Positions 5,178-18,617 of a DNA stretch of 64,000 nt are shown piece by piece. The notes beneath the pieces were generated by a model. The model had not been told where the DNA came from. It did no database searches and saw only the letters and a program-made list of their open reading frames with translations. Both the position numbers and the translations under genes were made by a program. Where the stretch lies: the NCBI RefSeq assembly GCF_003002815.1, contig NZ_PVTF01000004.1:186001-250000 (forward strand). Direction: 5' to 3'. The stretch's first letter is position 1, and each line of letters begins with the position of its first letter. The stretch comes from Umezawaea tangerina. GTDB lineage: Bacteria > Actinomycetota > Actinomycetes > Mycobacteriales > Pseudonocardiaceae.

Positions 5178-7196
5178 CTAGCGGCCGGGAAACGGCGTGT
5201 CCAGCAGACGGAGCATCGCGGTCGCCTTCACGGCCGTCTCCTCGAATTCCGCCGCCGGGTCGGAGAGCGCGATGACGGCTCCGCCGACGCCGAAACTCAC
5301 CTTGTCGTCGTGGACCACCAGTGTCCTGATGACGATGCTGAAGTCCGCTGAACCGGACAGCGAGAAGTAACCGAGGGCACCCGAGTAGACACCTCTGGGT
5401 CCCCCTTCCAGCCCATCGAGGATCTGCATTGTGCGGATCTTCGGCGCACCGGTCATCGAACCGCCGGGGAACGCGTCCCGGACGCACCGGACGGCCGAAG
5501 CACCGGTCCGCAGCCTCGCCCGCACGCCGCTGACGAGCTGGTGCACGGTCGCGTAGGTCTCGACGTCGAACAGGCGCGGCACCTCGACCGAGCCGACCTC
5601 CGCGTTGCGCCCGAGGTCGTTGCGGACCAGGTCCACGATCATCAGGTTCTCCGCGCGGTCCTTCTCGCTGGTCGCGAGGTCGTGCCGCAGCGCGTCGTCC
5701 TCCTCCGGCGTCCTCCCCCGCGGCCGCGTGCCCTTGATCGGCTCCGACTCCACGACGCCCGCGCGGTCGACCCGCAGGAACCGCTCCGGCGACGTGCTGA
5801 GCACCGAGAGACCGCCGAACCGCAGGAACGCGGCGAACGGGGCCGGGCTCTCCCGCCGCAGGAACCGGTAGGCCGCCCACGGGTCCACCTCGCCGCGCCG
5901 GGTCACCTGGTTGGTCAGGCACACCTCGTAGGTCTCCCCCGCGGTGATCGCCTCCAGGCAGGCGTCGACGAGCTTCAGGTAGTGCGGTCTGGCGTGCCGG
6001 AGGCGCACCTCCCCCGACGCGGTCCCCGGAACCGGCCCCGGCAACGGCCGCACCTCCCGCAGCACCGCCTCGACCCGGTCGAACCACCCGTCGTCGGTCA
6101 GCGCCAGCAGATGCGCGCGCCGGGTGAGGTGGTCGAACACGACGGCCCGGTCGGCGAACACCATCTCCGCGTCCGGCGTCTCCGACCGGTGGGCCGCGTC
6201 GCCGCCGCACTCGGCCTTCAGCTCGTACCCGAGGTAGCCCACCCAGCCCAGCGCGAACTCGAACGGCAGGTCGGGCGGCCGGACCGCGTGCTCGGCGAGG
6301 TCGCGTTCCAGCCAGTCCAGGAACGGCCCGTCGTGCGTCGACTCGCCGTCCGCACCCCTCACGGTCACCCGTGCGGTCCACACGTCGTAGGAGGCCACCC
6401 GCGCCAGCGGACCGCTCACGTCCCCCATCACCGAGAACCGCCCCCGCCCACCGGTCAGGCTGCTGTCCAGCCAGAACGCGTCCGGCGACCCGCCGTGCAG
6501 CCGGGCGAACACCGCCTCGGGGTCCGGGTGCACGTCCAGCGACCGCACCAGCACCTCCCGCTCCGGCACCGGCGGCGCGGGCCGCACCACCGACACGGGC
6601 GGCTCGGGGACGACCGGGTGGTGTTCCTCGGTGAGACGGCGGAAGTTCGCCAACAGCCGGTGCCCGTGCTCGGTGCGGATCGACTCGGGGTGGAACTGCA
6701 CGCCCCACGCGGGCCGGGTCCGGTGCCGCACGGCCATCAGCACGCCGTCGTCCGCCCAGCCGATCGCCTCGAGCTCCGGCGGCAGGTCGGTGACCGCGAG
6801 CGAGTGGTAGCGCACCACCGAGAACGGCGACGGCAGCCCGTCCAGCACGTCCACGCCGGTGTGCCGGACGAGGTCGACCCGACCGTGCCGCGGTTGTGGG
6901 GCGGGCCCGACCGCGGCGCCGTGCTCCAGGCACAGCCCCTGGTGCCCGAGGCACACGCCGAGCAGCGGGATGGGGCTCTCCCGGACCACGTCGGCGCAGA
7001 TCCCGAAATCGGACCTGGTGCGCGGGTTCCCCGGCCCCGGCGAGATCACCACGTTGTCGAAGCCGCCGAGATCGGCGAGTCGGAAGCGCGGGTCGTCGTT
7101 GGTGATGACGACCGGGTCCCGCCCGTTCACCTGTGCGAGGTGGTGGAACAGGTTGAAGGTGAACGAGTCGTGGTTGTCGATCAGCAGCGTGCGCAT
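5178..7196 (-). CDS. pabAB: Fused aminodeoxychorismate synthase PabAB
   Basis: A 672-residue fusion that makes 4-amino-4-deoxychorismate from chorismate and glutamine. Residues 1-190 are a class I glutamine amidotransferase (LLIDNHDSFTFNL at the start, nucleophile Cys82 in LGVCLGHQ, and GVQFHPESI with the catalytic His/Glu). Residues of roughly 240-670 are the chorismate-binding PabB domain, with EPIKGTRPRG carrying the PabB-type Lys, NLMIVDLVRNDLGR and PGGSMTGAPKIRTMQILD. Starts at ATG 7196. Fused pabAB genes in actinomycetes often belong to specialised pathways that use p-aminobenzoate or p-aminophenylalanine, but this one could equally serve folate. It sits next to an aromatic lyase operon but is separated from it by a convergent small gene. 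No ADC lyase (pabC) or PapB/PapC is in the window. Confidence 0.95.
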   Translation of the reverse strand: MRTLLIDNHDSFTFNLFHHLAQVNGRDPVVITNDDPRFRLADLGGFDNVVISPGPGNPRTRSDFGICADVVRESPIPLLGVCLGHQGLCLEHGAAVGPAPQPRHGRVDLVRHTGVDVLDGLPSPFSVVRYHSLAVTDLPPELEAIGWADDGVLMAVRHRTRPAWGVQFHPESIRTEHGHRLLANFRRLTEEHHPVVPEPPVSVVRPAPPVPEREVLVRSLDVHPDPEAVFARLHGGSPDAFWLDSSLTGGRGRFSVMGDVSGPLARVASYDVWTARVTVRGADGESTHDGPFLDWLERDLAEHAVRPPDLPFEFALGWVGYLGYELKAECGGDAAHRSETPDAEMVFADRAVVFDHLTRRAHLLALTDDGWFDRVEAVLREVRPLPGPVPGTASGEVRLRHARPHYLKLVDACLEAITAGETYEVCLTNQVTRRGEVDPWAAYRFLRRESPAPFAAFLRFGGLSVLSTSPERFLRVDRAGVVESEPIKGTRPRGRTPEEDDALRHDLATSEKDRAENLMIVDLVRNDLGRNAEVGSVEVPRLFDVETYATVHQLVSGVRARLRTGASAVRCVRDAFPGGSMTGAPKIRTMQILDGLEGGPRGVYSGALGYFSLSGSADFSIVIRTLVVHDDKVSFGVGGAVIALSDPAAEFEETAVKATAMLRLLDTPFPGR

Positions 7197-7288
7197 GACG
7201 TACGGCACGGTACCTGCTGAAACACCCGGAAGGAGTACCCCGACCACGGGCCGGTGGCGCAGCTCTCAACAGGTACGGTGGTGCCCTG

Positions 7289-7552
7289 ATGAGCGAGGAC
7301 GACGAGCAGGACGACGACTACTCCGAGGACGACGACGAGGGCTTCGACGAGGATTTCGAAGAAGACCCGTCCGACCTGTTCGAGGTGACCCGCGAGGTGC
7401 GCACGGTGTGCCAGCTGTGCGGTGGCGCGGGGTTCGTGGCGAACCCGGTGCTGGCTGTGATCAGCGGGACGCCCCGCACCGTCGACAACGGCCGGTCGTG
7501 CCCGCACTGCGAGGGCAACCGGACGTTCACCGGGCTGATCCCGCCGCTGTGA
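7289..7552 (+). CDS. Small acidic protein with two CxxC zinc-ribbon motifs
   Basis: An 87-residue protein. The first 35 residues are nearly all Asp/Glu (EDDEQDDDYSEDDDEGFDED). The C-terminal half has two CxxC knuckles, CQLCGGAGF and CPHCEGN, spaced about 30 residues apart, as in DnaJ-type zinc ribbons. It ends TFTGLIPPL. ATG 7289 is the start. Its last 26 bases overlap the 3' end of the convergent ligase gene, so the two transcripts are antisense at their ends. A small metal-binding adaptor or a nucleic-acid mimic is conceivable, but no function can be assigned. Confidence 0.75.
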   Translation: MSEDDEQDDDYSEDDDEGFDEDFEEDPSDLFEVTREVRTVCQLCGGAGFVANPVLAVISGTPRTVDNGRSCPHCEGNRTFTGLIPPL

Positions 7553-9287
7553 TCACGTCCGGGTCGGGTGGGTCGGCGTAGAGCCGTTCCACCGCCCCGG
7601 CCCGGCGGCCGAGCACCGCGAGCTGGTTCACGTAGCCCTTGTCGGTGATCTCGCCCGCGTCCAGGTCGGGCGGGTCGGCCAGGAGCAGCAGCCTGGTGAT
7701 GCGGGACGCCGAACCGAGGCCGTCGCCCAGCGACGCGAGCACGTCGGCCAGGTGGTCGCGGAGGAACTGGTCGTCCAGGGCGACGTCGTGGTCCTTGCCG
7801 CACAGCACCCGCGCCTCGATCGGGTTCAGCCACGCCAAAGCCGTCACCTCGGCGCGGTCGTGGCCCGCGATCACCGCGTCGGAGAGCACCCCGGCCGCGG
7901 ACACCAGGGCGGTGCGCAGCGCGCCCGTGCTGACCCAGCTGCCGGTGGTGAGCTTGAAGTCCTCGGCGATCCGGCCGTCGAACACCAGGCCCCGCCCCGG
8001 ATCCGCCGGGTCGGCGAGCGCCGCGGCGTCGCCGGTCCGGTAGAAGCCGTCCTCGTCGAACGCCGCCGCGGTCCGGTCCGGCGCGTCGAAGTAGCCGGGC
8101 GTGACGTTGGGTCCGGCCACCCGGATCTCGCGCTTGCCGCCGACCGGGACGAGCTTCACCGTCACGCCGGGCAGCGGGACGCCGATGGAGCCGCACGGCG
8201 CGTCGGCCCAGTGCGCGGACGTGGCGGCGGGCGCGGTCTCGGTCGCGCCCCACGCGGCGGTCAGCGGGATCGGGTGGTCGGCGTGCCGGTCGACCAGCCG
8301 CCGGATCCGGTCCCACAGCGCGGTCGGCATGGCCGCCGCGGCGCAGAACAGCAGGCGCAGCCGGGAGAAGAAGTGCCGGGCGAACGCCGGGTCGGCCTCC
8401 AGCCTCGGCACCAGCACGGCGTACCCGGCGGGCACGTTGAGGTACACCGTCGGGCGGGTCGCGGTCAGCGCCGTGATCGACCGCTCGAACAGCGCGGGCG
8501 CCGGGCGGCCGGTGTCGACGTGGAACGTGCCGCCGTTGGTGAGGACCAGGTGCACGTTGTGGTTGCCGCCGAAGGTGTGGCTCCACGGCAGCCAGTCCAC
8601 GAGCACCGGCGGCTCGTCCACCAGGAACGGCCAGGTGGCGCGCAGCATCGCCTGGTTCGCGGTCAGCATGCGGTGGGTGTTCAGCACGCCCTTCGGGGTG
8701 CCGGTGGAACCCGAGGTGAACAGCACCTTCGCCACCGTGTCCGGGGTGATCGCGTCGAACGCGGCCGCCAGGCTCGCGCCGGGCACCGCGGCCGCCAGCG
8801 GTTCCAGGTCGGTCACGGCGTGGGCGCGCGTCGCTTCGAGCGCGGGCCCGAAGGCGTCGGCGTCGTCGGCGAACACCACACCCGGCCGCACCAGCTCCGC
8901 CATCGCCCGCAGGCGGCCGTGGTCCTTGGACAGCAACGAGTACGCCGCGCTGACCGGGACCACCGGGACGCCCGCGGTGTAGCAGGCGAGCGTGATCCTC
9001 AAGTGCGCCAACGAGTTCCCGGACAGCACCATGACCGGGCGCTCGCGGGAGGCGCCGAGGTCCAGCAGCGCCTGGCCGATCGCGTCCGCGTCCCGCGCGG
9101 CCCGGCCGTAGGTCAGCGAGCCCGTCCCGTCCGTCGCGAGCACGGCGTCCGGCGCGGCGGAAGCCCAGTGCCGCAACGACAGCGCGAGGTGCGCCGGGTG
9201 GTCGCCCAGCGGCTCGGCGGAGCGCAGGAGCAGCGCCCCGTCCGGCCGTTGTTCGGCGACCACCCTGGGTTCGGCGAAGGTCCTCAT
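7527..9287 (-). CDS. Feruloyl-CoA synthetase-like AMP-dependent ligase
   Basis: A 586-residue ANL-superfamily adenylating enzyme, expected to activate an aryl acrylic acid with ATP and CoA. Core motifs in order: P-loop VLFTSGSTGTPKGV, WLPWSHTFGGNHN, AAWGATETAPAATS, GFYRTGD, VFDGRIAEDFKLTTGSWVS, and the C-terminal lysine in EITDKGYVNQ. The AEDFKLTTGTWV-type hinge and the WSHTFGGNHN block are typical of feruloyl-CoA synthetases rather than of plain 4-coumarate ligases or NRPS adenylation domains. It is the last gene of a three-gene operon; its ATG overlaps the halogenase stop (ATGA), implying translational coupling. The expected substrate is the product of the upstream lyase, possibly after halogenation. 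Confidence 0.88.
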   Translation of the reverse strand: MRTFAEPRVVAEQRPDGALLLRSAEPLGDHPAHLALSLRHWASAAPDAVLATDGTGSLTYGRAARDADAIGQALLDLGASRERPVMVLSGNSLAHLRITLACYTAGVPVVPVSAAYSLLSKDHGRLRAMAELVRPGVVFADDADAFGPALEATRAHAVTDLEPLAAAVPGASLAAAFDAITPDTVAKVLFTSGSTGTPKGVLNTHRMLTANQAMLRATWPFLVDEPPVLVDWLPWSHTFGGNHNVHLVLTNGGTFHVDTGRPAPALFERSITALTATRPTVYLNVPAGYAVLVPRLEADPAFARHFFSRLRLLFCAAAAMPTALWDRIRRLVDRHADHPIPLTAAWGATETAPAATSAHWADAPCGSIGVPLPGVTVKLVPVGGKREIRVAGPNVTPGYFDAPDRTAAAFDEDGFYRTGDAAALADPADPGRGLVFDGRIAEDFKLTTGSWVSTGALRTALVSAAGVLSDAVIAGHDRAEVTALAWLNPIEARVLCGKDHDVALDDQFLRDHLADVLASLGDGLGSASRITRLLLLADPPDLDAGEITDKGYVNQLAVLGRRAGAVERLYADPPDPDVITAAGSAR

Positions 9288-10594
9288 CCGATGCCCAGCA
9301 CCATTCCCTTCTCCTCCGTCGCGTCGATCTCGGGGTAGACCGGGCAGCCGTAGAGGGGTTCGAAGGGGGCGAACGTGTCGAAGTCCTCAATGGACCGGAG
9401 GTGGTTGGCGAGCGCGTTCTTCTCGCTCCAGAAGTCTCCGCCGAGCAGCCGGGCGACCCACCGCGGGTCCACCCACACGCCGGTGCTCTTGAGGAACGAG
9501 CCGATCTTGAAGTCGTGGTCGTAGAACGCGTAGATCAACCGGAAGTAGCAGTCGTAGCCGGTCTTGTAGAACCGGGTGTACTGGTCGACCGCGTCCTCCT
9601 CGGACAGCTCGCCCTCCAGCGCGCTCGCGGCGAGCTCACCGGCCCGCAGGCCGCTGGAGGTCGCCAGGTAGACGCCCGCGGAGAAGATCGGGTCGACGAA
9701 GCAGCCCGCGTCCCCGGCCACGAAGAAGCCCGGTCCCGCCAGGTCCTCGGTGTGGTAGGAGTAGTCGCTCTCGCTCTTGAGCTCCGTCACGGCGGTCGCG
9801 TCCGCGATCCGCTGCCGGATGCGGGGGATGCGGTCGACGTGCTCGGCGAACACCTGCTCCGGGTCGCCCACCCGCTGGTACACCGCCGGGCTGCTCACCG
9901 TGCCGACGCTGAGCTTCCCCGGCCGGATGGGGATCGACCAGACCCAGCCCTCGGTGTGCGACCCGATCACGATGTCGCCCTCGACACCGGGGTTGGTGGC
10001 CTCGTCGATGCCGTCGTAGTGCTTGAACACGGCCAGCATCCGCAGCCGTTCGCTGATCCGCCTGCTCCGGAAGTGCTGGTTCGCGATGACGCCCGCGCGG
10101 CCGCTGGCGTCGACCACCTGCCTGGCCCGCACGGTGTGCGAGGCGTCGCCGATGGCCACCACGACACCCGCGACCCGACCGCCCTCGACGAGGACCTTGG
10201 TCACCTTGGCCTCGTGGATCACCTCTGCACCCGCCTTGGCGGCGTTGTCCAGCAGCATCTCGTCGAAGTCCGCGCGCTCCACCTGGAACGTGGTCTCCAC
10301 CCGGCCGCCGCCCTGGTCGGCGAAGTCGACCCTGGTGACCTTGCCGTCGGTGTCGCAGAACTCCGCGCCGGTCTTGATCGGGAACTCCGAGCGCAGCCGG
10401 TCGCCGAGCCCGAGCCGCTCGAACAGGGCGGCGGCGTAGGTCAGCATCGACTCGCCGATGTGGAACCGCGGGAACGGCTGGCGGTCCAGGACGAGCACCG
10501 AGTGGCCTCGGTTGGCGAGGGTCCACGCGGCGGCCGAACCAGCCGGGCCGCCACCGATCACGATCGCGTCGTACTCAGCCGAAGGACTGGACAT
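9284..10594 (-). CDS. FAD-dependent halogenase-like oxidoreductase
   Basis: A 436-residue flavoprotein monooxygenase fold. GGGPAGSAAAWTLANRG (residues 14-30) is the FAD dinucleotide-binding site, and FHIGESML follows at about 44-51. The flavin-dependent-halogenase signature WxWxIP is present as GWVWSIPI, and a lysine lies at residue 74 in FPIKTGAEF, the position of the conserved Lys in phenol-type (CndH/PltM-like) halogenases. FVAGDAGCFVDPIFSAGVYLA is the second FAD contact. Chlorination or bromination of an aromatic ring with FADH2 from a separate reductase is the family reaction; a hydroxylase-like or cryptic role cannot be excluded. ATG 10594 is preferred over ATG 10612 because AGGAG lies 8 bases before it. 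It follows the lyase stop by 20 bases and overlaps the ligase start. Confidence 0.8.
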   Translation of the reverse strand: MSSPSAEYDAIVIGGGPAGSAAAWTLANRGHSVLVLDRQPFPRFHIGESMLTYAAALFERLGLGDRLRSEFPIKTGAEFCDTDGKVTRVDFADQGGGRVETTFQVERADFDEMLLDNAAKAGAEVIHEAKVTKVLVEGGRVAGVVVAIGDASHTVRARQVVDASGRAGVIANQHFRSRRISERLRMLAVFKHYDGIDEATNPGVEGDIVIGSHTEGWVWSIPIRPGKLSVGTVSSPAVYQRVGDPEQVFAEHVDRIPRIRQRIADATAVTELKSESDYSYHTEDLAGPGFFVAGDAGCFVDPIFSAGVYLATSSGLRAGELAASALEGELSEEDAVDQYTRFYKTGYDCYFRLIYAFYDHDFKIGSFLKSTGVWVDPRWVARLLGGDFWSEKNALANHLRSIEDFDTFAPFEPLYGCPVYPEIDATEEKGMVLGIG

Positions 10595-10614
10595 GGGGTC
10601 ACTCCTCACCATGG

Positions 10615-12234
10615 TCAGGACACCGCGCAGGACTTCCGCAGCGCACCGCTGCGGATCAGCGCGACGACCGCGTGGATGTCGGCGTCCATGCGACGGTCGC
10701 TGTGGACGAACGGCACGTGCTCGCGGACGAGGTCGTAGGCGGGCCGCGAGCCGGGGCTGAGCAGGTCCGGCCCGCGGAAGTCGACCGCCTGGCACAGCGC
10801 CAGCAGGTGGATCGCGGCGACCTGCTCGGTCAGCTCGAGCACGGTCCTCGCGTCGCGGGCGGCGATCGTGCCCATGCTGACCTTGTCCTGGTTGTGCGCC
10901 TCGGTGGAGCGGGAGAACGCGCTCGCGGGCATGGTCAGCTTCAGCGCCTCGGCCGCCAACGAGGAGGCGGCGATCTGCATCCCCTTGAAACCGTGGTGCA
11001 GCCCCGCCTGCCAGTCGTCCGGCTCGACCGGGCGGACCAGGTTCGCGGGCAGGCCGTTGTTGAACTTCTCGTCCACGATGAGCGCGAGCTGCCGGTCCAG
11101 CAGGTCCGCGACGTTGGCGATGGCGAGTTTCAGCCCGTCCATGGACTGGCCGATGTGCCCGCCGTAGAAGTTGCCGCCGCTGCGCACGACGTTCTCGCCC
11201 GCGTCGAACAAGGGGTTGTCATTGGTCGAGTTGATCTCGATCGACACCCATTTCTCCGACCATTCCAGCAGGTCGCGGAGCACGCCGGTGACGCCGGGGG
11301 CGCAGCGCAGGGAATAGCGATCCTGAACGGGGTGGTCCAGCCGGTAGTACCCGGTACCCGACGGCATCGGGTCGGAGGTCAGAACCTCGCCCTGGGTGTG
11401 CGAAAGACCGGAACCCCTCATGAGCCTGGAGATGTTCTCGGCACTGCACAGCTGACCGGGATGGGGTTTCTGCTCGTGGATGAAACGGTCGTAATGGCCC
11501 TGGTTGCCCAGCATGACCTGCGCGCCGAGCGCCGTGCAGAGGTCCGCGACCGCGGCGATCTCCTTCGCGCCCTCGACCGCCAGAACCGCGAACGCCGACA
11601 TGAACGAGGTCCCGTTTATGAGCGCGAGTCCCTCTTTCGCCTCGAGCACGAACGGCTCCATGCCGCAGTCCTCGTACGCCTCCACTGCGGGCACGTCACG
11701 CCCTTGGTACCGGACGGTACCGACGCCGATGACGGCGCTCGCGACGTAGCACAGCGGAACGAGGTCGCCGCTCGCGCCGACCGAGCCGCGCTCGGGGATG
11801 ATCGGCAGGACGTCGTTCTCCAGCATCGCCAGCAGGTGGGCCGCCAGCTCGGGACGAATACCCGAATGGCCGCGGGCCAGGCAGTTCGCCCGGATGAGCA
11901 GGGTGGCGCGGACGACCTCGCGGGTGCTCTCCGGGCCGGTGCCGTTGAGGTGGTAGACCACGAGGTTGCGCTGCAGGTCGGCCGTCTTCTCGGGCGAGAT
12001 CTGCCGCGTGCTGCTGTCCCCGAAACCGGTCGTGACCCCGTAGATGGGCAGCCCGAGGTCGATCAGCCTGAGCTTGAGACCGTGCGAGTCCGCCATCCTG
12101 GAGGCCGCGTCGGGATCGACCTTCAAACGCAGCGGTAAGGAGCCGCACGCGACGTCGGCGACCTCACGGAGCGTCAGATCGTGCCCGTTGACGAAAAGCG
12201 ATTTCTGCACGTCGTCGTCGATCGTCGAGGTCAT
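10615..12234 (-). CDS. MIO-type aromatic amino-acid ammonia-lyase (HAL/PAL family)
   Basis: A 539-residue enzyme that removes ammonia from an aromatic L-amino acid to give an aryl acrylate, using the autocatalytic MIO group. The MIO triad Ala-Ser-Gly is at 154-156 in SVGASGDLVPLCYVA; the catalytic Tyr is at 65 in LPIYGVTTGFGD; YSLRCAPGVTGV, GGNFYGGHIGQSMD and AHNQDKVSMG are further family blocks. At the substrate-selectivity pair it has Tyr94-His95 (LVVYHLNG). Classical TAL has His-Leu, PAL Phe-Leu and HAL Ser-His at this place, so the substrate is uncertain. Start ATG 12234 has GAAAGAGG upstream. The gene is first in the operon lyase, halogenase, ligase. No hut genes are nearby, which argues against histidine catabolism. 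An aminomutase activity is an alternative. Confidence 0.9.
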   Translation of the reverse strand: MTSTIDDDVQKSLFVNGHDLTLREVADVACGSLPLRLKVDPDAASRMADSHGLKLRLIDLGLPIYGVTTGFGDSSTRQISPEKTADLQRNLVVYHLNGTGPESTREVVRATLLIRANCLARGHSGIRPELAAHLLAMLENDVLPIIPERGSVGASGDLVPLCYVASAVIGVGTVRYQGRDVPAVEAYEDCGMEPFVLEAKEGLALINGTSFMSAFAVLAVEGAKEIAAVADLCTALGAQVMLGNQGHYDRFIHEQKPHPGQLCSAENISRLMRGSGLSHTQGEVLTSDPMPSGTGYYRLDHPVQDRYSLRCAPGVTGVLRDLLEWSEKWVSIEINSTNDNPLFDAGENVVRSGGNFYGGHIGQSMDGLKLAIANVADLLDRQLALIVDEKFNNGLPANLVRPVEPDDWQAGLHHGFKGMQIAASSLAAEALKLTMPASAFSRSTEAHNQDKVSMGTIAARDARTVLELTEQVAAIHLLALCQAVDFRGPDLLSPGSRPAYDLVREHVPFVHSDRRMDADIHAVVALIRSGALRKSCAVS

Positions 12235-12630: not shown

Positions 12631-13860
12631 GTGATCTTCCTCCTGCTGCTCGGCGTGCCGTGCGGGCTCGCCCACCTCTACCTGTGGAAGCGGCTCGTCC
12701 GCGACACCACGCGGTCCGGTCGCGGCCGCACGCTGGGCACGGTGGCCGTCGTCGTGATGTTCCTGGTCCTGCTGGGCGGGCTGGTGGGGTCGCGGGCGCT
12801 CGGCCCGGACGTCGCCGCGGTGCTGGCCTGGCCCGGCTACCTGTGGCTCGCGATGGTCCTCTACCTCACCTTGCTGCTGCTCGTGCTGGAAGTGCCCCGC
12901 GCGGTGCTGAACCGCCGTCTGCGGCCCGTTCGCACCCCGGCGGAGGTGACGGTGCCCGCCGGGCCCGAGGAGCCCGTCGCGGACGACGTGGCGCCCGCGC
13001 CCGAACCGGCCGGGGGCGAGCCCGCCGACCCCGGCAGGCGGCTGTTCATCGCCCGGTCGCTGGCCGTGGCCGGCGGCGTGGTGGCCACCGGCGTCGTCGG
13101 CTACGGCGTGACCCAGGCGATGGGTGGACCGGTCGTCAAGCGGGTCCCGATCGCGCTGGGCAAGCTCGCGCCCGCGTTCGACGGGTTCCGGATCGCGGTC
13201 GTCAGCGACATCCACCTGGGACCGCTGCTCGGCCGCTCGCACACCGAGCGGGTCGTGAACACCATCAACGGCCTGCGGCCCGACCTCGTCGCGATCGTCG
13301 GCGACCTGGTCGACGGGACGGTGGAGGAGCTCGGCGAGGCCGCCGCACCGCTGCGGGACCTGGTCAGCCCGCACGGCAGCTTCTTCGTCACCGGCAACCA
13401 CGAGCACTTCTCCGGCGCGCAGCCGTGGCTGGCCGAGCTGACCAGGCTCGGCGTGCACCCGCTGCGCAACGAGCTGCTCGCGGTCACCCGCGGCGGCGCG
13501 GCGTTCGACCTCGCGGGCGTCAACGACGTGACCGGGCGGAGCTACGGCGACGGGCCGGACATGGAGAAGGCCCTGGAGCGGCACGACACCTCGACGCCCG
13601 TGGTGCTGCTGGCGCACCAGCCCGTGCAGGCGGTGCAGGCCGCGAAGCTCGGGGTGGACCTCCAGCTGTCCGGGCACACCCACGGTGGCCAGATGTGGCC
13701 GTTCAACTACGCCGTCACGCTCCAGCAGCCGGTGGTCTCCGGACTGGCCGAAGTCGACGGGATGCCCGTGTACGTCAGCAACGGCGCGGGTTTCTGGGGA
13801 CCACCGGTCCGCGTCGGCGCACCGCCGGACGTCACCCTGGTGGAGCTGCGTACAGCCTGA
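12631..13860 (+). CDS. Membrane-anchored metallophosphoesterase (YkuE/YaeI-like)
   Basis: A 409-residue calcineurin-like phosphoesterase with a membrane N-terminus. Hydrophobic helices occupy roughly residues 1-15, 35-60 and 65-90, then a Pro/Glu-rich linker, then a further hydrophobic segment after GRRLFIARSLAVAGG. The catalytic domain shows the metal-binding motifs SDIHLGP, GDLVDG, GNHEH, AHQP and SGHTHGGQ in the usual order. The active site probably faces outside the membrane. Family members act on lipid head groups or UDP-sugar lipids, but no specific substrate can be assigned. Start is GTG 12631. Divergent from the lyase operon; followed by the polyamine genes with a 99-bp gap. Confidence 0.88.
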   Translation: MIFLLLLGVPCGLAHLYLWKRLVRDTTRSGRGRTLGTVAVVVMFLVLLGGLVGSRALGPDVAAVLAWPGYLWLAMVLYLTLLLLVLEVPRAVLNRRLRPVRTPAEVTVPAGPEEPVADDVAPAPEPAGGEPADPGRRLFIARSLAVAGGVVATGVVGYGVTQAMGGPVVKRVPIALGKLAPAFDGFRIAVVSDIHLGPLLGRSHTERVVNTINGLRPDLVAIVGDLVDGTVEELGEAAAPLRDLVSPHGSFFVTGNHEHFSGAQPWLAELTRLGVHPLRNELLAVTRGGAAFDLAGVNDVTGRSYGDGPDMEKALERHDTSTPVVLLAHQPVQAVQAAKLGVDLQLSGHTHGGQMWPFNYAVTLQQPVVSGLAEVDGMPVYVSNGAGFWGPPVRVGAPPDVTLVELRTA

Positions 13861-13959: not shown

Positions 13960-15165
13960 ATGACTGAGAGCGTTGCCACACCGGCGGTCGAACCGCCGAT
14001 GCCGCGTCCCGCTGGAACCGGGCGTGAGGAGGCACAAGCTCGTATCCGCCGTTTCCTGGATCGTGAGCGACCGGCCACGCCGTGCCTGGTCATCGACCTC
14101 GAGACCGTCCGCGAGCGGTACGCCGCGATCGCGTCGGCGCTGCCGGGGGTCGGCGTCTTCTACGCCGTGAAGGCGAACCCGGAGCCCGAGGTGGTGGCGC
14201 TGCTGGCCACCGAGGGCTGCTCGTTCGACGTCGCCAGCCCCGCCGAGATCGACCTGTGCCTGGCGCAGGGCGCGCCCGCCGAGCGGATCTCCTACAGCAA
14301 CCCCATCAAGAAGGCCGCGGACATCGCCTACGCCCACGGGCGCGGCGTGCGGCTGTTCGTGTCGGACAGCGAGCAGGACGTGCGGGCGATCGCCGAGCAC
14401 GCGCCGGGCTCCTCCGTGCTGCTGCGGATCTTCGTGGAGGCCAACAGGTCCACGTACCCGTTCGGCAAGAAGTTCGGCTGCGACCCGGAGATGGCGACGG
14501 ATCTCCTGCGTTCGGCCTCCCGGATGGGACTTCGCGCGCTGGGCGTCGCGTTCCACGCCGGTTCCCAGCAACTGGACCCCAACGGGTGGGACGGCGCGAT
14601 CGCCGACGCCGCCGCGGTGACCGCGAAGCTGCGCGCCGAGGGGCTGGAGCTGTCGACGGTCAACCTCGGCGGCGGGCTCCCCTCGGCGTACCTGGACGAA
14701 CCGCCGCCGCTGGCCGAGTTCGCCGCCGCCATCACCGCCTCGATCGCCCGGCACTTCGGCGACCACGCGCCGCGGGTGATGATCGAGCCGGGGCGCGCGG
14801 TCGTGGCCGAGTCCGGTGTCATCCGGTCGGAAGTCGTTCTGGTGTCGCGGAAGTCGTACTCCGACGAACGGCGGTGGGTCTACCTCGACGTCGGCCGCTA
14901 CGGTGGTCTGGCCGAGACCGAGGGCGAGGCCATCGCGTACCCGTTGCGCACGGGCAAGGACGACGGGCCGCGCGGGCCGGTCGTGCTGGCCGGGCCGACG
15001 TGCGACGCCGACGACGTGCTGTACCAGCGCACCGTCTACGAGCTGCCGCTCGACCTGACCGCGGGCGACCACGTCGACCTGCTCGGCACGGGCGCGTACA
15101 CGTCGAGCTACTCCTCGGTGGCCTTCAACGGTTTCGGCCCGCTGGCCACCCACTGCGTGCGGTGA
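13960..15165 (+). CDS. PLP-dependent ornithine/lysine-type decarboxylase (fold III, group IV)
   Basis: A 401-residue alanine-racemase-fold decarboxylase that converts ornithine or lysine to putrescine or cadaverine. PLP-binding Lys71 lies in VFYAVKANPE; SFDVASPAEI, ISYSNPIKK, VAFHAGSQ and the phosphate loop LGGGLP follow; IEPGRAVVAESG and the catalytic Cys in GPTCDADDVL are present, and GTGAYTSSYSSVAFNGFGPL is a typical eukaryote-like ODC C-terminus. About 30 extra N-terminal residues precede the core. It is the first gene of a three-gene polyamine set (decarboxylase, AdoMet decarboxylase, aminopropyltransferase-like). Whether ornithine or lysine is preferred cannot be read from sequence. Confidence 0.9.
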   Translation: MTESVATPAVEPPMPRPAGTGREEAQARIRRFLDRERPATPCLVIDLETVRERYAAIASALPGVGVFYAVKANPEPEVVALLATEGCSFDVASPAEIDLCLAQGAPAERISYSNPIKKAADIAYAHGRGVRLFVSDSEQDVRAIAEHAPGSSVLLRIFVEANRSTYPFGKKFGCDPEMATDLLRSASRMGLRALGVAFHAGSQQLDPNGWDGAIADAAAVTAKLRAEGLELSTVNLGGGLPSAYLDEPPPLAEFAAAITASIARHFGDHAPRVMIEPGRAVVAESGVIRSEVVLVSRKSYSDERRWVYLDVGRYGGLAETEGEAIAYPLRTGKDDGPRGPVVLAGPTCDADDVLYQRTVYELPLDLTAGDHVDLLGTGAYTSSYSSVAFNGFGPLATHCVR

Positions 15166-15219
15166 GCACGCCCCGGATTGTCCACAGCCCGGTCCCACTG
15201 AAGATGTTTGGAGTGATTG

Positions 15220-15630
15220 ATGTCCGAAGTTCCGTGCGAGACGGAGCCGGTCGGCTTGTTCGCAGGACAGCACGTGCTCGCCGAGTTGGAGGGCGTGAGC
15301 CCCGAGATCCTCGATGACGAGAAGTTCCTGCGGCACGCGCTCGGTGAGGCTCTCACCCAGGCGAATGCCACGGTGCTGGAGGTGATCTCCAAGCAGTTCG
15401 ACCCGCAGGGGGTCACCGTGCTGGCCCTGCTTTCGGAGTCGCACGCGTCCATCCACACCTATCCGGAGGTCGGATCGGTGTTCGTGGACGTGTTCACCTG
15501 CGGTACGAAGGCGAAACCCGCGCTTGCGGTGCAGTTGCTCGCCGAGGCGCTGGGCGCCGCGTCGACACGGACGGACATGATCAGCCGCGGCAACCGCGTC
15601 CCGGCTCTTGTTGGTGAGGAAAAGGTATGA
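15220..15630 (+). CDS. speH: S-adenosylmethionine decarboxylase, prokaryotic class 1B
   Basis: A 136-residue pyruvoyl proenzyme that supplies decarboxylated AdoMet, the aminopropyl donor. The self-cleavage motif is LSESHASIHTYPE. The processing Ser is residue 74, with the acid/base His at 79 and the Cys proton donor at 94, exactly the spacing of the Thermotoga-type enzyme (Ser63, His68, Cys83). ATG 15220 follows GGAG by 7 bases; an in-frame TTG three bases earlier is an alternative. The stop codon overlaps the next ATG (ATGA), so it is coupled to the aminopropyltransferase-like gene. Confidence 0.95.
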   Translation: MSEVPCETEPVGLFAGQHVLAELEGVSPEILDDEKFLRHALGEALTQANATVLEVISKQFDPQGVTVLALLSESHASIHTYPEVGSVFVDVFTCGTKAKPALAVQLLAEALGAASTRTDMISRGNRVPALVGEEKV

Positions 15631-16511
15631 ACGGCATCGACACTGATGTCCAGCTGTCGTCTTCGACGACGATCCGCGAACCCCTCGGCGACGGGCTCAC
15701 CAGGATCTGGGACCTCGACGACGTCGTCGTCGACACCAGGACCGAGTTCCAGCACCTGGTGATCGCCGACACCGCGCAGGGCAGGTCCCTGTTCTGCGAC
15801 AACGACCGGCAGAGCACCGAGTTCAGCCAGCTGACCTACCACGAGGCGCTGATGGTCCCGGCGCTGCTGCTCGCGGACCGGGTCGACCGCGTGCTCGTCA
15901 TCGGCTCCAGCGAGGGCGTCGTGTGCCAGATGGCCGTCGCGGCGGGCGCGACCGCCGTCGACCACATCGACATCGACTCGCAGGCCGTGAAGCTCTGCGC
16001 CGAGCACCTGCCCTACGGCTACACGACCACCGAGCTGGCCGAGGCCGAAGCGGGCGACGGCACCGTCCGGGTGAAGTACGTCGACGGGTGGGAGTACATC
16101 CGCACCACCTCGGAGAAGTACGACATCGTGCTGGTCGACCTCCCCGACGAGCGCGAGGAGGAGGCCCAGCACAACCGCCTGTACGGCGAGGAGTTCCTCC
16201 GCATGTGCAAGGCGCTGCTCACGCCCGGCGGCGTGGTCGTGACGCAGGCGGGCTGCCAGACCATGTGGCGCAACAAGACGCTGATCCGCTCGTTCCAGCG
16301 GTTCAACGACGTGTTCGACACGACGGTCTACTACGGCTCCGACGAGCACGAGTGGGCCTACCTGTTCGGCCGCGCGGACGTCGTGGAGGACCCGACCGCG
16401 CTGATGACCGAGCGCCTGGCGACCTCGGGCTACCAGCCGGAGACCATCGACGACCTGGCCCTGCTGTCGGGCTCGATCCCGCCGTACACCGTGCGGCGGT
16501 CGTTGGCGTGA
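15627..16511 (+). CDS. Spermidine synthase-like aminopropyltransferase, atypical motifs
   Basis: A 294-residue Rossmann-fold protein of the SpeE superfamily, expected to transfer an aminopropyl group from decarboxylated AdoMet to a diamine. The N-terminal QHLVIADTAQGRSLFCDN block and the TEFSQLTYHEALMVPALL block match SpeE. The glycine loop reads VLVIGSSEGVVCQMAV instead of GGGDGG, and the usual DSTDP-like active-site segment reads VDLPDEREEEAQ. The Asp pair HIDID for ribose binding is kept. The altered loops suggest an unusual diamine or triamine acceptor, or a related transferase. It is translationally coupled to the AdoMet decarboxylase, which strongly supports a polyamine function. Confidence 0.85.
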   Translation: MNGIDTDVQLSSSTTIREPLGDGLTRIWDLDDVVVDTRTEFQHLVIADTAQGRSLFCDNDRQSTEFSQLTYHEALMVPALLLADRVDRVLVIGSSEGVVCQMAVAAGATAVDHIDIDSQAVKLCAEHLPYGYTTTELAEAEAGDGTVRVKYVDGWEYIRTTSEKYDIVLVDLPDEREEEAQHNRLYGEEFLRMCKALLTPGGVVVTQAGCQTMWRNKTLIRSFQRFNDVFDTTVYYGSDEHEWAYLFGRADVVEDPTALMTERLATSGYQPETIDDLALLSGSIPPYTVRRSLA

Positions 16512-16517
16512 GCCGTC

Positions 16518-16546
16518 GGGGGAGCCGGGTCGACCGGCTCCCCCGT
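16518..16546. terminator. Bidirectional terminator hairpin
   Basis: Perfect 12-bp stem (CGGGGGAGCCGG / CCGGCTCCCCCG) with a 5-base loop between the convergent stops of the polyamine operon and the S9 peptidase. It lacks a T tract, as is common in actinobacteria. Confidence 0.75.
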
Positions 16547-16550
16547 TCGC

Positions 16551-18617
16551 TCAGCCGAGCGACCTCTTCAGGAATTCCACCTGGAGCAGCAACAGGTTCT
16601 CCGCGACCTGCTCCTGCGGCGTCATGTGCGTGACCCCGGACAGCGGCAGCACGGTGTGCGGCCTGCCCGCGGCGACCAGCGCGGAGGACAGCCGCAGCGT
16701 GTGCGCCGCCACCACGTTGTCGTCGGCCAGCCCGTGGATGATCATCAGCGGCCGCTCCAGGTCCCCCGCGTCGGCGATCAGCGAGTTCCGCTCGTAGACC
16801 TCCGGCCGTTCCTCGGGGTGGCCGAGGTAGCGCTCGGTGTAGTGCGTGTCGTACAGCGCCCAGTCCGTCACCGGCGCCCCCGCGATGCCCGCGTGGAACA
16901 CGTCGGGCCTGCGCAGCACGGCCAGCGCGGACAGGTACCCGCCGTAGGACCAGCCCCTGATCGCGACGCGGGTCAGGTCGAGGTCCTCGTACTTGGCCGC
17001 CACCGCGTGCAGCCCGTCGACCTGGTCCTGCAGCGTCGCCCCGGCGAAGTCGAACGCGATCTCCCGCTCCCACACCGGTCCGCGCCCCGGCGTGCCGCGG
17101 CCGTCCACGACGAGCACCGCGAACCCCTGGTCCGCCAACCACTGCGAGGCCAGGTGGACGTTGCGCGCCGACAGGACCCGTTGCGCGTGCGGCCCGCCGT
17201 ACGGGTCCAGCAGCACCGGCAGCTTGGCCGAGCCGGGCACGTGGCCGGTCGGGAACAGCAGCGCCACCCGCAGGTCGCGCTCGCCGACGGTGAGCATCTC
17301 CACCTCGGGCGTGAGCACCGGGGTCTCCGCGGACGAGCCGATCTCGTGCCCGTTCACCGTCACCTTCGAGCCGTACCAACCGAGACCGGCCGACGCCAGC
17401 AGCAGCACGTCGCCGCCGCGCACCGCGGTGTGCACGCCGTCCACAGTGGACAGCCGCTCGACACCGGCCGCGGTGACCCGGTAGACGTGGATCTGCGTCG
17501 GGTCGTCCTCCGAGGCCGTCACGAGCACGTCGTCGGCCGTCACGTCGAGCACCGAGCGCACCTGGAAGCCGTCCGGCGTCCACTCGTCGGCGCCGACCAC
17601 GAGCCGGTTGGCGCCGTCGCGCACGGCGATCCGGACGAGCTTCGCGTCCGGCGTCCAGACCGGCACGCCCGGCATGATCTCGACCCACGTCGGGTCGGTG
17701 TCGGTGTGCAGCAGCTCGGTGGCGCCGGTCGCGGTGTCGACCGCCAGGACCTGCGCGGTCCGCTGGTCCCTGGTCTGCACCAGCAGCAGCGGGGAGCCCG
17801 CGGCGGACCAGTGCGCCGAAGCCAGGTAGGGGAAGGCCTCCCGGTCCCAGACGACCTCGACCGACGAGCCGTCCACGCCCAGCACGAACAGACCCACGAG
17901 CGCGTTCGCCGTGCCCGCGGCCGGGTAGGCGATCTCGGCCGCGGGGGTCGCCGGGTTGGCGGGGTCGGCGATGTACCAGCGCGGTACCGGGGTGTTGTCC
18001 ACCCTGGCCGCCAGCAGGGACTCGCCGTCCGGCGCGAACCAGTACCCGCGGAAGCGGCTCATCTCCTCCGCCGCGATGAACTCCGCGAGCCCCCAGGTGA
18101 CCTCGGGGTCGTCGTCCCGGCCGAGCGCGGTGTCGTTGCCACCGGCCAGGTCCAGGACGTGCAGCGCGCCGTCGGCCACGTAGGCGACGCGGGCGCCGGT
18201 CGGGTCGAGCCGGGGGTCGATCACCGGGCCCGCCGCGGGCAGCTCCCGCACCTCGTGCGAGACCAGGTCGGCGAGGAACAGCCTGCCGGACAAGGCGAAC
18301 ACCGCCTGCCGGGCCGCCGCGTCGACCACGTAGCCGACGATGCCCGCGCCCGACTCGCGGCTGCGCTCCCGTCGTGCGCGCTCCTGCGGCGAGAGGTCCT
18401 CGGGGTCGGTCAGCAGCACCGCCGGGTCGGCGACGAGCTTCTCCGCGCCGGTGGCGGTGTCCAGGGTCCACAGCCCGTTCGCCCGGCTCGTGGCCGTCGC
18501 GACGCGCAGGAAGAACACGTGTGAACCGTCGGGTGCGACGGTGAAGGTCCTCGGTGCGCCGAGGGTGAACCGCTGGGTGCGCGCGTGTTGGCGCGGGAAG
18601 GAGGTGTCGTTGCCCAC
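16551..18617 (-). CDS. S9-family prolyl oligopeptidase (dipeptidyl-peptidase IV-like)
   Basis: A 688-residue serine peptidase with a WD-like beta-propeller N-terminal domain (to about residue 430) and an alpha/beta-hydrolase catalytic domain. Catalytic residues are Ser557 in RGWSYGGYLS, Asp632 or Asp633 in HGLADDNV and His664 in GVTHMTPQ. A double Glu motif in AEFIAAEEMSRFRGYW matches the substrate N-terminus anchor of DPP IV, which favours release of X-Pro dipeptides. There is no signal peptide, so it is probably cytoplasmic. Start is ATG 18617. It stands alone, upstream of the two-component system on the same strand. Confidence 0.92.
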   Translation of the reverse strand: MGNDTSFPRQHARTQRFTLGAPRTFTVAPDGSHVFFLRVATATSRANGLWTLDTATGAEKLVADPAVLLTDPEDLSPQERARRERSRESGAGIVGYVVDAAARQAVFALSGRLFLADLVSHEVRELPAAGPVIDPRLDPTGARVAYVADGALHVLDLAGGNDTALGRDDDPEVTWGLAEFIAAEEMSRFRGYWFAPDGESLLAARVDNTPVPRWYIADPANPATPAAEIAYPAAGTANALVGLFVLGVDGSSVEVVWDREAFPYLASAHWSAAGSPLLLVQTRDQRTAQVLAVDTATGATELLHTDTDPTWVEIMPGVPVWTPDAKLVRIAVRDGANRLVVGADEWTPDGFQVRSVLDVTADDVLVTASEDDPTQIHVYRVTAAGVERLSTVDGVHTAVRGGDVLLLASAGLGWYGSKVTVNGHEIGSSAETPVLTPEVEMLTVGERDLRVALLFPTGHVPGSAKLPVLLDPYGGPHAQRVLSARNVHLASQWLADQGFAVLVVDGRGTPGRGPVWEREIAFDFAGATLQDQVDGLHAVAAKYEDLDLTRVAIRGWSYGGYLSALAVLRRPDVFHAGIAGAPVTDWALYDTHYTERYLGHPEERPEVYERNSLIADAGDLERPLMIIHGLADDNVVAAHTLRLSSALVAAGRPHTVLPLSGVTHMTPQEQVAENLLLLQVEFLKRSLG

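Follow-up and report, generated by a model that had tools for sequence, protein, structure and literature searches.

What is made by three tightly packed genes of the soil-type actinomycete Umezawaea tangerina that encode an ammonia-lyase, a flavoprotein with halogenase motifs and an acyl-coenzyme A (CoA) ligase? The genes lie in a stretch of 64,000 nucleotides (G000:C4:186001-250000; hereafter the window) of a genome of 10.68 Mb (G000). We consider it fairly probable that the operon is a native cassette for halogenated phenylpropanoids, in which tyrosine would be converted to p-coumarate and further to 3-halo-p-coumaroyl-CoA. This reading builds on direct observations, namely the genes, their motifs, the predicted fold of the flavoprotein, the retention of the operon in a sister genome and a recurrent linkage of lyase and halogenase; we infer the activities, the halide, the order of the last two steps and the fate of the product.

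Lyase, flavoprotein and ligase are encoded by three open reading frames in one tight unit, all on the minus strand (Table 1). The coupling described in the original prediction, by a 20-base junction and an ATGA overlap, is borne out by the frames, the sequence and the family matches; a second in-frame ATG of the flavoprotein is found 18 bases upstream, within the 20-base gap. The three-gene operon is real, and it is more than a chance arrangement because lyase, halogenase and ligase recur, in this order and in the same setting, in the sister genome (G022), with identities of 97, 93 and 91%. The genus sample consisted of these two genomes and a third, G060. Between G000 and G022 the ratio of nonsynonymous to synonymous substitution rates (dN/dS) is 0.091 for the lyase, 0.186 for the halogenase and 0.279 for the ligase, and 0.188 for the neighbouring phosphoesterase gene. 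All three operon genes are under purifying selection.

The best NCBIfam model for the lyase is NF041222 BagA_FevW, at 719.6 bits against a cut-off of 1000 that is not reached, and the protein appears to be a relative of the tyrosine ammonia-lyases (TALs) that is not filed as BagA itself. Its 4-methylideneimidazole-5-one (MIO) triad is A154-S155-G156 (GASGD) and its specificity pair Y94-H95 (NLVVYHLNGTG). According to extracts of the literature, through which all papers are cited here, the selectivity of ammonia-lyases is strongly influenced by these two positions (PMC9002059); FL is the mark of known phenylalanine ammonia-lyases and YH that of known TALs, BagA being a strict TAL (PMC5651878). 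A Tyr occupies the His89 column in a Streptomyces enzyme that is regarded as a true TAL (PMC8773403), and FevV/BagA converts tyrosine to trans-coumarate (PMC6692506). Where the window lyase reads NQDKVSMG in the alignment, the HutH-like protein encoded by a separate gene of the same genome (C3:656039) reads QEDHVSMG, and the window protein stays below the cut-off of the hutH model TIGR01225 (445.5 bits, cut-off 539.15). The motif, the score and the YH pair support the earlier assignment to the aromatic rather than the histidine lyases. The substrate, predicted only as an aromatic amino acid, can be narrowed to tyrosine because of the YH pair, and the window lyase is most likely a tyrosine ammonia-lyase. 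YH is present in all five aligned lyase rows that are linked to a halogenase (two of them near-copies) and in a fragment from Fodinicola. The six lyases linked to a ligase without a halogenase carry FL, but all belong to one clade.

For the flavoprotein the best NCBIfam model is CmlS (197.1 bits, cut-off 900). The closest Protein Data Bank chains by sequence are the halogenases 8zop, CndH, Bmp2, RadH and CmlS, followed by the uncharacterised flavoprotein 3nix, with PltA also among the matches of the sequence/profile search. An AlphaFold model (predicted local distance difference score 91.5, predicted template modelling score 0.92) was compared with solved structures by Foldseek, in which ranks 1-13 are taken by chains of Bmp2, FasV (8zop), RadH, ChlB4, CndH, PltA and Mpy16 and rank 14 by 3nix. 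The modelled protein thus has a halogenase fold. A dinucleotide motif (GGGPAGS, with GxGxxG present) starts at residue 14. In an alignment of 41 rows, 40 of them different (two rows are copies), the WxWxIP motif (W217-W219-I221-P222) is kept in every row, K74 in 40 (one gap), D301 in 39 and F304 in 35. K74, D301, which is followed by P302, and F304 align with K74, D325 and F328 of RadH. The K74A and D325A changes abolish RadH activity, the three residues are shared by fungal halogenases known or presumed to use phenols, and a phenol is a prerequisite for RadH (PMC5637929). Because RadH has this requirement, the window halogenase by analogy probably needs a phenol as well. The flavoprotein is 49% identical to a halogenase of Actinosynnema pretiosum (L060) whose neighbours look by eye like methoxymalonyl-acyl carrier protein (ACP) genes and a polyketide synthase (PKS); this protein is presumed to be Asm12. 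Asm12 carries out the chlorination step of ansamitocin biosynthesis (PMC3388874). Motifs, predicted fold and this identity support the earlier description of a flavoprotein with halogenase motifs, and suggest a flavin halogenase of the phenol type.

The ligase scores best, among the models listed, with NF009232 (PRK12582 acyl-CoA synthetase; 693.5 bits, short of the subfamily cut-off of 777) and is the sole match in its genome at E <= 1e-90. Together with PF00501, this agrees with the feruloyl-CoA-synthetase-like enzyme originally proposed, and the protein is best described as a putative aryl-CoA ligase of that kind.

In the pathway that we favour, the lyase would deaminate L-tyrosine to p-coumarate, and the halogenase, dependent on FADH2 (reduced flavin adenine dinucleotide), would place Cl or Br ortho to the phenol on p-coumarate or its CoA ester. 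If the RadH mechanism is carried over, hypohalous acid would be captured by Lys74, with Asp301 acting as base. The ligase would give 3-halo-p-coumaroyl-CoA, in either order with halogenation. A possible fourth step, encoded elsewhere in the genome, would be cleavage by p-hydroxycinnamoyl-CoA hydratase/lyase (HCHL) to 3-halo-4-hydroxybenzaldehyde and acetyl-CoA. The original prediction had a halogenated aryl-acryloyl-CoA formed by ring halogenation and then CoA activation. Such a product is possible from the three enzyme families, but halogenation before activation is not retained as a fixed order.

The best argument for a shared pathway is that lyase and halogenase, and likewise lyase and ligase, have become linked more than once or have exchanged partners. 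In a scan of named genomes, 80 of 125 halogenase relatives were kept, 22 of which are at least 42% identical to the window protein (one, L081, is partial). A BagA-like lyase (tblastn E <= 1e-8) is found near four of the 80, and all four are among the 22 closest (L049, L050, L053 and L058; Table 1). A family sample of 294 genomes gave the lyase in 26 genomes at 29 places, with surroundings covered for 28 of these (G166 left out). Within them a window-type halogenase is near the lyase at three places (G000, G022 and G029, the last from an organism already represented among the four named loci), a window-type ligase at eight (G000, G022 and six others), and both only in G000 and G022. Lyase and ligase are found together in 9 of the 294 genomes (ligase in 16, lyase in 26; Fisher p 6e-7, kinship not corrected for). 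Three further halogenase relatives (E <= 1e-105) were obtained from a class-wide sample of 394 genomes, and the two examined have no BagA-like lyase within 20 kb. The search for co-occurrence of the three families called for by the original prediction thus returned the exact set from the sister pair only, and the lyase-halogenase and lyase-ligase linkages recur elsewhere.

Trees were consistent with repeated assembly of these pairs. Five of the six lyase-linked halogenases fall in one starred branch of eight rows, with L058 outside; the branch also includes L051, L052 and L054, three proteins without a known lyase link (the L054 stretch starts 1 kb upstream of the halogenase, where a lyase could be missed). 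The halogenase-linked lyases together with the G060 lyase do not form one clade (approximately unbiased (AU) test, p 1.3e-21; p 0.001 without Fodinicola, a test added after the tree was seen). For the AU tests the long rows L157 and L236 were left out and the broken Fodinicola lyase was represented by its best piece only. In the ligase tree the window protein clusters with L180, a stand-alone ligase, and lies apart from the six lyase-adjoining ligases. Because the linked lyases are not one clade and the window ligase stands apart from the lyase-adjoining ones, each linkage appears to have arisen more than once, or partners have been exchanged. We would tentatively extend this, at somewhat less than even chances, to a native bacterial pathway for phenylpropanoids halogenated on the ring, in which lyases of the tyrosine type were several times recruited to a single branch of phenol halogenases. 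These halogenases would act on a small phenol, either free or as the CoA ester, giving 3-halo-p-coumaroyl-CoA or, via HCHL, 3-halo-4-hydroxybenzaldehyde, as a free metabolite or a starter unit.

The surroundings of the other loci bear on where the product might go. In Fodinicola the halogenase is followed by an HCHL (337.2 bits, cut-off 276) and another acyl-CoA synthetase, and in Goodfellowiella an aldehyde-dehydrogenase-like gene, a 3-hydroxyacyl-CoA dehydrogenase and a type I PKS are near by. Flavin-reductase-like genes, below curated cut-offs, are located near the halogenases of L053 and L058, and L053 also has a ketosynthase. U. tangerina (contig C25; 430.7 bits, same cut-off) and its sister genome encode an HCHL at a locus other than the operon, and in G060 it is missing where CtaB, an HD-domain gene and three more neighbours are kept. 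An HCHL is encoded in each of the three family genomes that link lyase and halogenase (G000, G022 and G029), and in 71 of the 294 family genomes in total. Judging from the other loci and from the organism's own HCHL gene, the pathway may not stop at the CoA ester, which could be an intermediate. HCHL was considered as a proven partner; this was not upheld by the family counts, and its part in the pathway is a guess, left as a possibility. A PKS elsewhere in the genome was likewise considered as user of the product; G000 gave 83 ketosynthase matches, and no link from any of them to the operon could be made. For a type III PKS as user, three matches in G000 exceed the PF00195 cut-off of 27 bits (69.5, 47.4 and 27.2), but control genomes match too, and the three may be FabH-like.

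Several results weigh against a halogenated-phenylpropanoid cassette. None of the three operon proteins reaches the cut-off of its own best NCBIfam model. In G060 the lyase (83% identity) is at the same place, and halogenase and ligase are both lacking from the interval up to the small convergent gene that, in the window, overlaps the 3' end of the ligase gene (7289-7552). The full set is seen only in the two close genomes, and joint conservation of the three genes in relatives, as originally envisaged, holds for two of the three genus genomes and was not seen in G060 or, at the 28 of 29 lyase places covered, in any other genome of the family sample. At 18 of the 22 closest named halogenase loci no BagA-like lyase was found, several of these stretches being short. 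The YH pair is also present in 14 of 18 lyase rows with neither halogenase nor ligase adjoining, and in the G060 lyase; in the linked lyases it appears to be necessary, yet no sign of coupling. 3nix has the same Lys and Asp and WxWxIP-like features in the alignment, and because of this the motifs alone are no proof of halogenation. No flavin reductase was recognised by eye near the operon among the window gene calls. In the family sample HCHL is not enriched with the ligase (6/16, p 0.16) or with the lyase (8/26, p 0.27).

Three other explanations were weighed against these data. The flavoprotein might be a monooxygenase or other oxidoreductase, the operon product then being an oxidised, non-halogenated coumaroyl-CoA. 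The superfamily includes non-halogenases, and the protein scores 146 bits with the QhpG model (cut-off 240) and 131.1 bits with the geranylgeranyl reductase family model (cut-off 158.8); the motifs shared with 3nix and an Asn at the D301 column in two fairly close Streptomyces relatives (the L051 and L052 halogenases) point the same way. However, K74, D301, F304 and WxWxIP are all kept in the window protein itself, and its identity to the presumed Asm12 and its first 13 fold matches are to halogenases, which makes this explanation unlikely. We regard as quite unlikely that the operon serves tyrosine catabolism, with lyase, ligase and the unlinked HCHL yielding 4-hydroxybenzaldehyde and halogenation as a side branch. 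The feruloyl-CoA-synthetase kind of the ligase and the HCHL score well over its cut-off would suit such a route, as would the presence of both genes in G000 and G022 and the absence of both in G060, but the halogenase sits in the operon and is under purifying selection, no ligase was recognised near the HCHL locus, and the family sample gave no enrichment of HCHL with the ligase.

A beta-tyrosine-type unit as in enediyne clusters, in which the MIO enzyme would be an aminomutase and halogenation would take place on a carrier protein, is very unlikely. Many CndH/PltA-like halogenases act on carrier-bound substrates, and in a search of solved structures the top matches of the lyase are Tyr aminomutase chains, the best being 2rjr. 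However, the lyase scores 380.8 bits with the Tyr 2,3-aminomutase model TIGR03832 (Tyr_2_3_mutase; cut-off 501, not reached) against 719.6 for BagA_FevW, and in G060 an aminomutase-like unit is encoded separately, at a different locus. Inspection by eye of the window gene calls of at least 80 aa, from which a small or distant carrier could escape, revealed neither a carrier protein nor an adenylation-carrier pair. Nor was any PKS or nonribosomal peptide synthetase (NRPS) gene recognised by eye, from N-terminal sequence, among the window gene calls, in agreement with the original prediction.

Genes beside the operon were considered as further members. Downstream, a fused PabA-PabB aminodeoxychorismate synthase is encoded at 5178-7208; PabAB (5178 to about 7200) was rejected as a fourth operon gene because it is present in G060, which lacks two operon genes, and was not found in the 20-kb operon stretch of G022. 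Upstream, a metallophosphoesterase gene (12631-13860) is divergent from the lyase gene. Polyamine genes (13960-16511) were rejected as partners of the halogenase and ligase, as they are kept in G060 without these two.

Table 1. Operon features in the window, and named loci with a BagA-like lyase near the halogenase
Feature	Source	Positions	Strand	Remarks
Tyrosine-type MIO ammonia-lyase (predicted)	Window	10615..12234	-	539 aa; PF00221 548.1 bits
Lyase/halogenase junction	Window	10595..10614	-	20 bases, with alternative in-frame ATG; sequence
Flavin-dependent halogenase-like protein	Window	9284..10594	-	436 aa; PF04820 99.9 bits
ATGA overlap	Window	9284..9287	-	Halogenase stop and ligase start; sequence
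Aryl-CoA ligase, PRK12582 (feruloyl-CoA-synthetase-like) kind (predicted)	Window	7527..9287	-	586 aa; PF00501 188.7 bits
L049, lyase and halogenase	Fodinicola feengrottensis	8461-9948 (lyase)		Lyase read in several frames, through sequencing error or decay
L050, lyase and halogenase	Goodfellowiella			Aldehyde-dehydrogenase gene between lyase and halogenase; halogenase on opposite strand
L053, lyase and halogenase	Egibacteraceae metagenome-assembled genome			4-base overlap, lyase/halogenase
L058, lyase and halogenase	Nocardiopsaceae metagenome-assembled genome			Lyase beside or near halogenase

Related genes were also noted in other settings. The aminomutase-like unit of G060 (L157; G060:C3:385000-404990) combines an MIO gene (35% identity to the window lyase) with an adenylation-type gene and a gene for a CndH-like halogenase (39%), with genes at 5536-7122 and 15550-17031, and the set resembles an enediyne beta-tyrosine unit. 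In two related genomes (L046 and L048) an MIO lyase 40% identical to that of the window, a value also typical of HutH, is found about 8 kb from an Asm12-kin halogenase, in the last kilobase of each stretch, where it is truncated. Two Streptomyces clusters have a gene for the sliding clamp DnaN (L051:8262-9386, by Pfam; L052:8253-9383, by eye) near a 59% identical halogenase, with a large synthetase, an NRPS by eye, close to both; their product is possibly clamp-targeting, with DnaN for self-resistance. In L181 (G259) and L182 (G213) an FL-type lyase and a ligase share a 4-base overlap, and in L181 they adjoin a ketosynthase, a second ketosynthase-like protein and an ACP-like gene (by eye), perhaps supplying a type II PKS with a cinnamoyl starter. 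A Plantactinospora halogenase gene overlaps that of a metallophosphoesterase 53% identical to the window's (L059:9974-12549). Finally, the surroundings of a BagA-like lyase in L223 (G066) include genes that by eye resemble those of UbiD, UbiX, a flavin reductase and an HpaB-like oxygenase, a set that might belong to a vinylphenol or vinylcatechol route.

If the cassette is what we propose, nature would have its own version of an engineered TAL-ligase-halogenase pathway, and the operon would supply a small aryl halogenase for which a simple substrate is predicted. Actinomycete genomes could then be searched for halogenated phenylpropanoids by way of a genetic handle, a YH lyase of the BagA-like type next to a halogenase related to Asm12. 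Within one genus the same lyase is found both with and without an adjoining halogenase and ligase, which provides a ready natural comparison. The parts are known, and their combination was not found in the papers searched in one open-licence library, where the names of chlorinated (not brominated) coumaric acids returned no paper.

C-1027-type beta-tyrosine units resemble the window in bringing together an MIO enzyme, a flavin halogenase and an AMP-forming enzyme, but theirs is an aminomutase and the halogenation is carrier-bound. The bagremycin/ferroverdin enzyme FevV/BagA belongs by family model to the same lyase branch; in that pathway, however, a UbiX-UbiD pair decarboxylates the coumarate, p-vinylphenol then being condensed, and no halogenase is mentioned in the available part of the report (PMC6692506). 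Asm12 of ansamitocin (PMC3388874) and Nat1 of naphthomycin (PMC3826140) are kin of the window halogenase but act in ansamycin biosynthesis, and L060 is without a BagA-like lyase. In Chitinophaga pinensis a TAL and a 4-coumarate-CoA ligase (4CL), encoded in one cluster, start the flexirubin pathway, which differs in being an aryl-polyene pigment cluster for which the extract makes no mention of a halogenase (PMC3992019). The nearest published counterpart that we found is an Escherichia coli strain engineered with TAL, 4CL, F6'H and a RadH variant, which shares the catalytic residues and likewise halogenates a tyrosine-derived phenylpropanoid, but is a man-made mix of bacterial, plant and fungal enzymes with 8-chloro-7-hydroxycoumarin as its product (PMC5637929).

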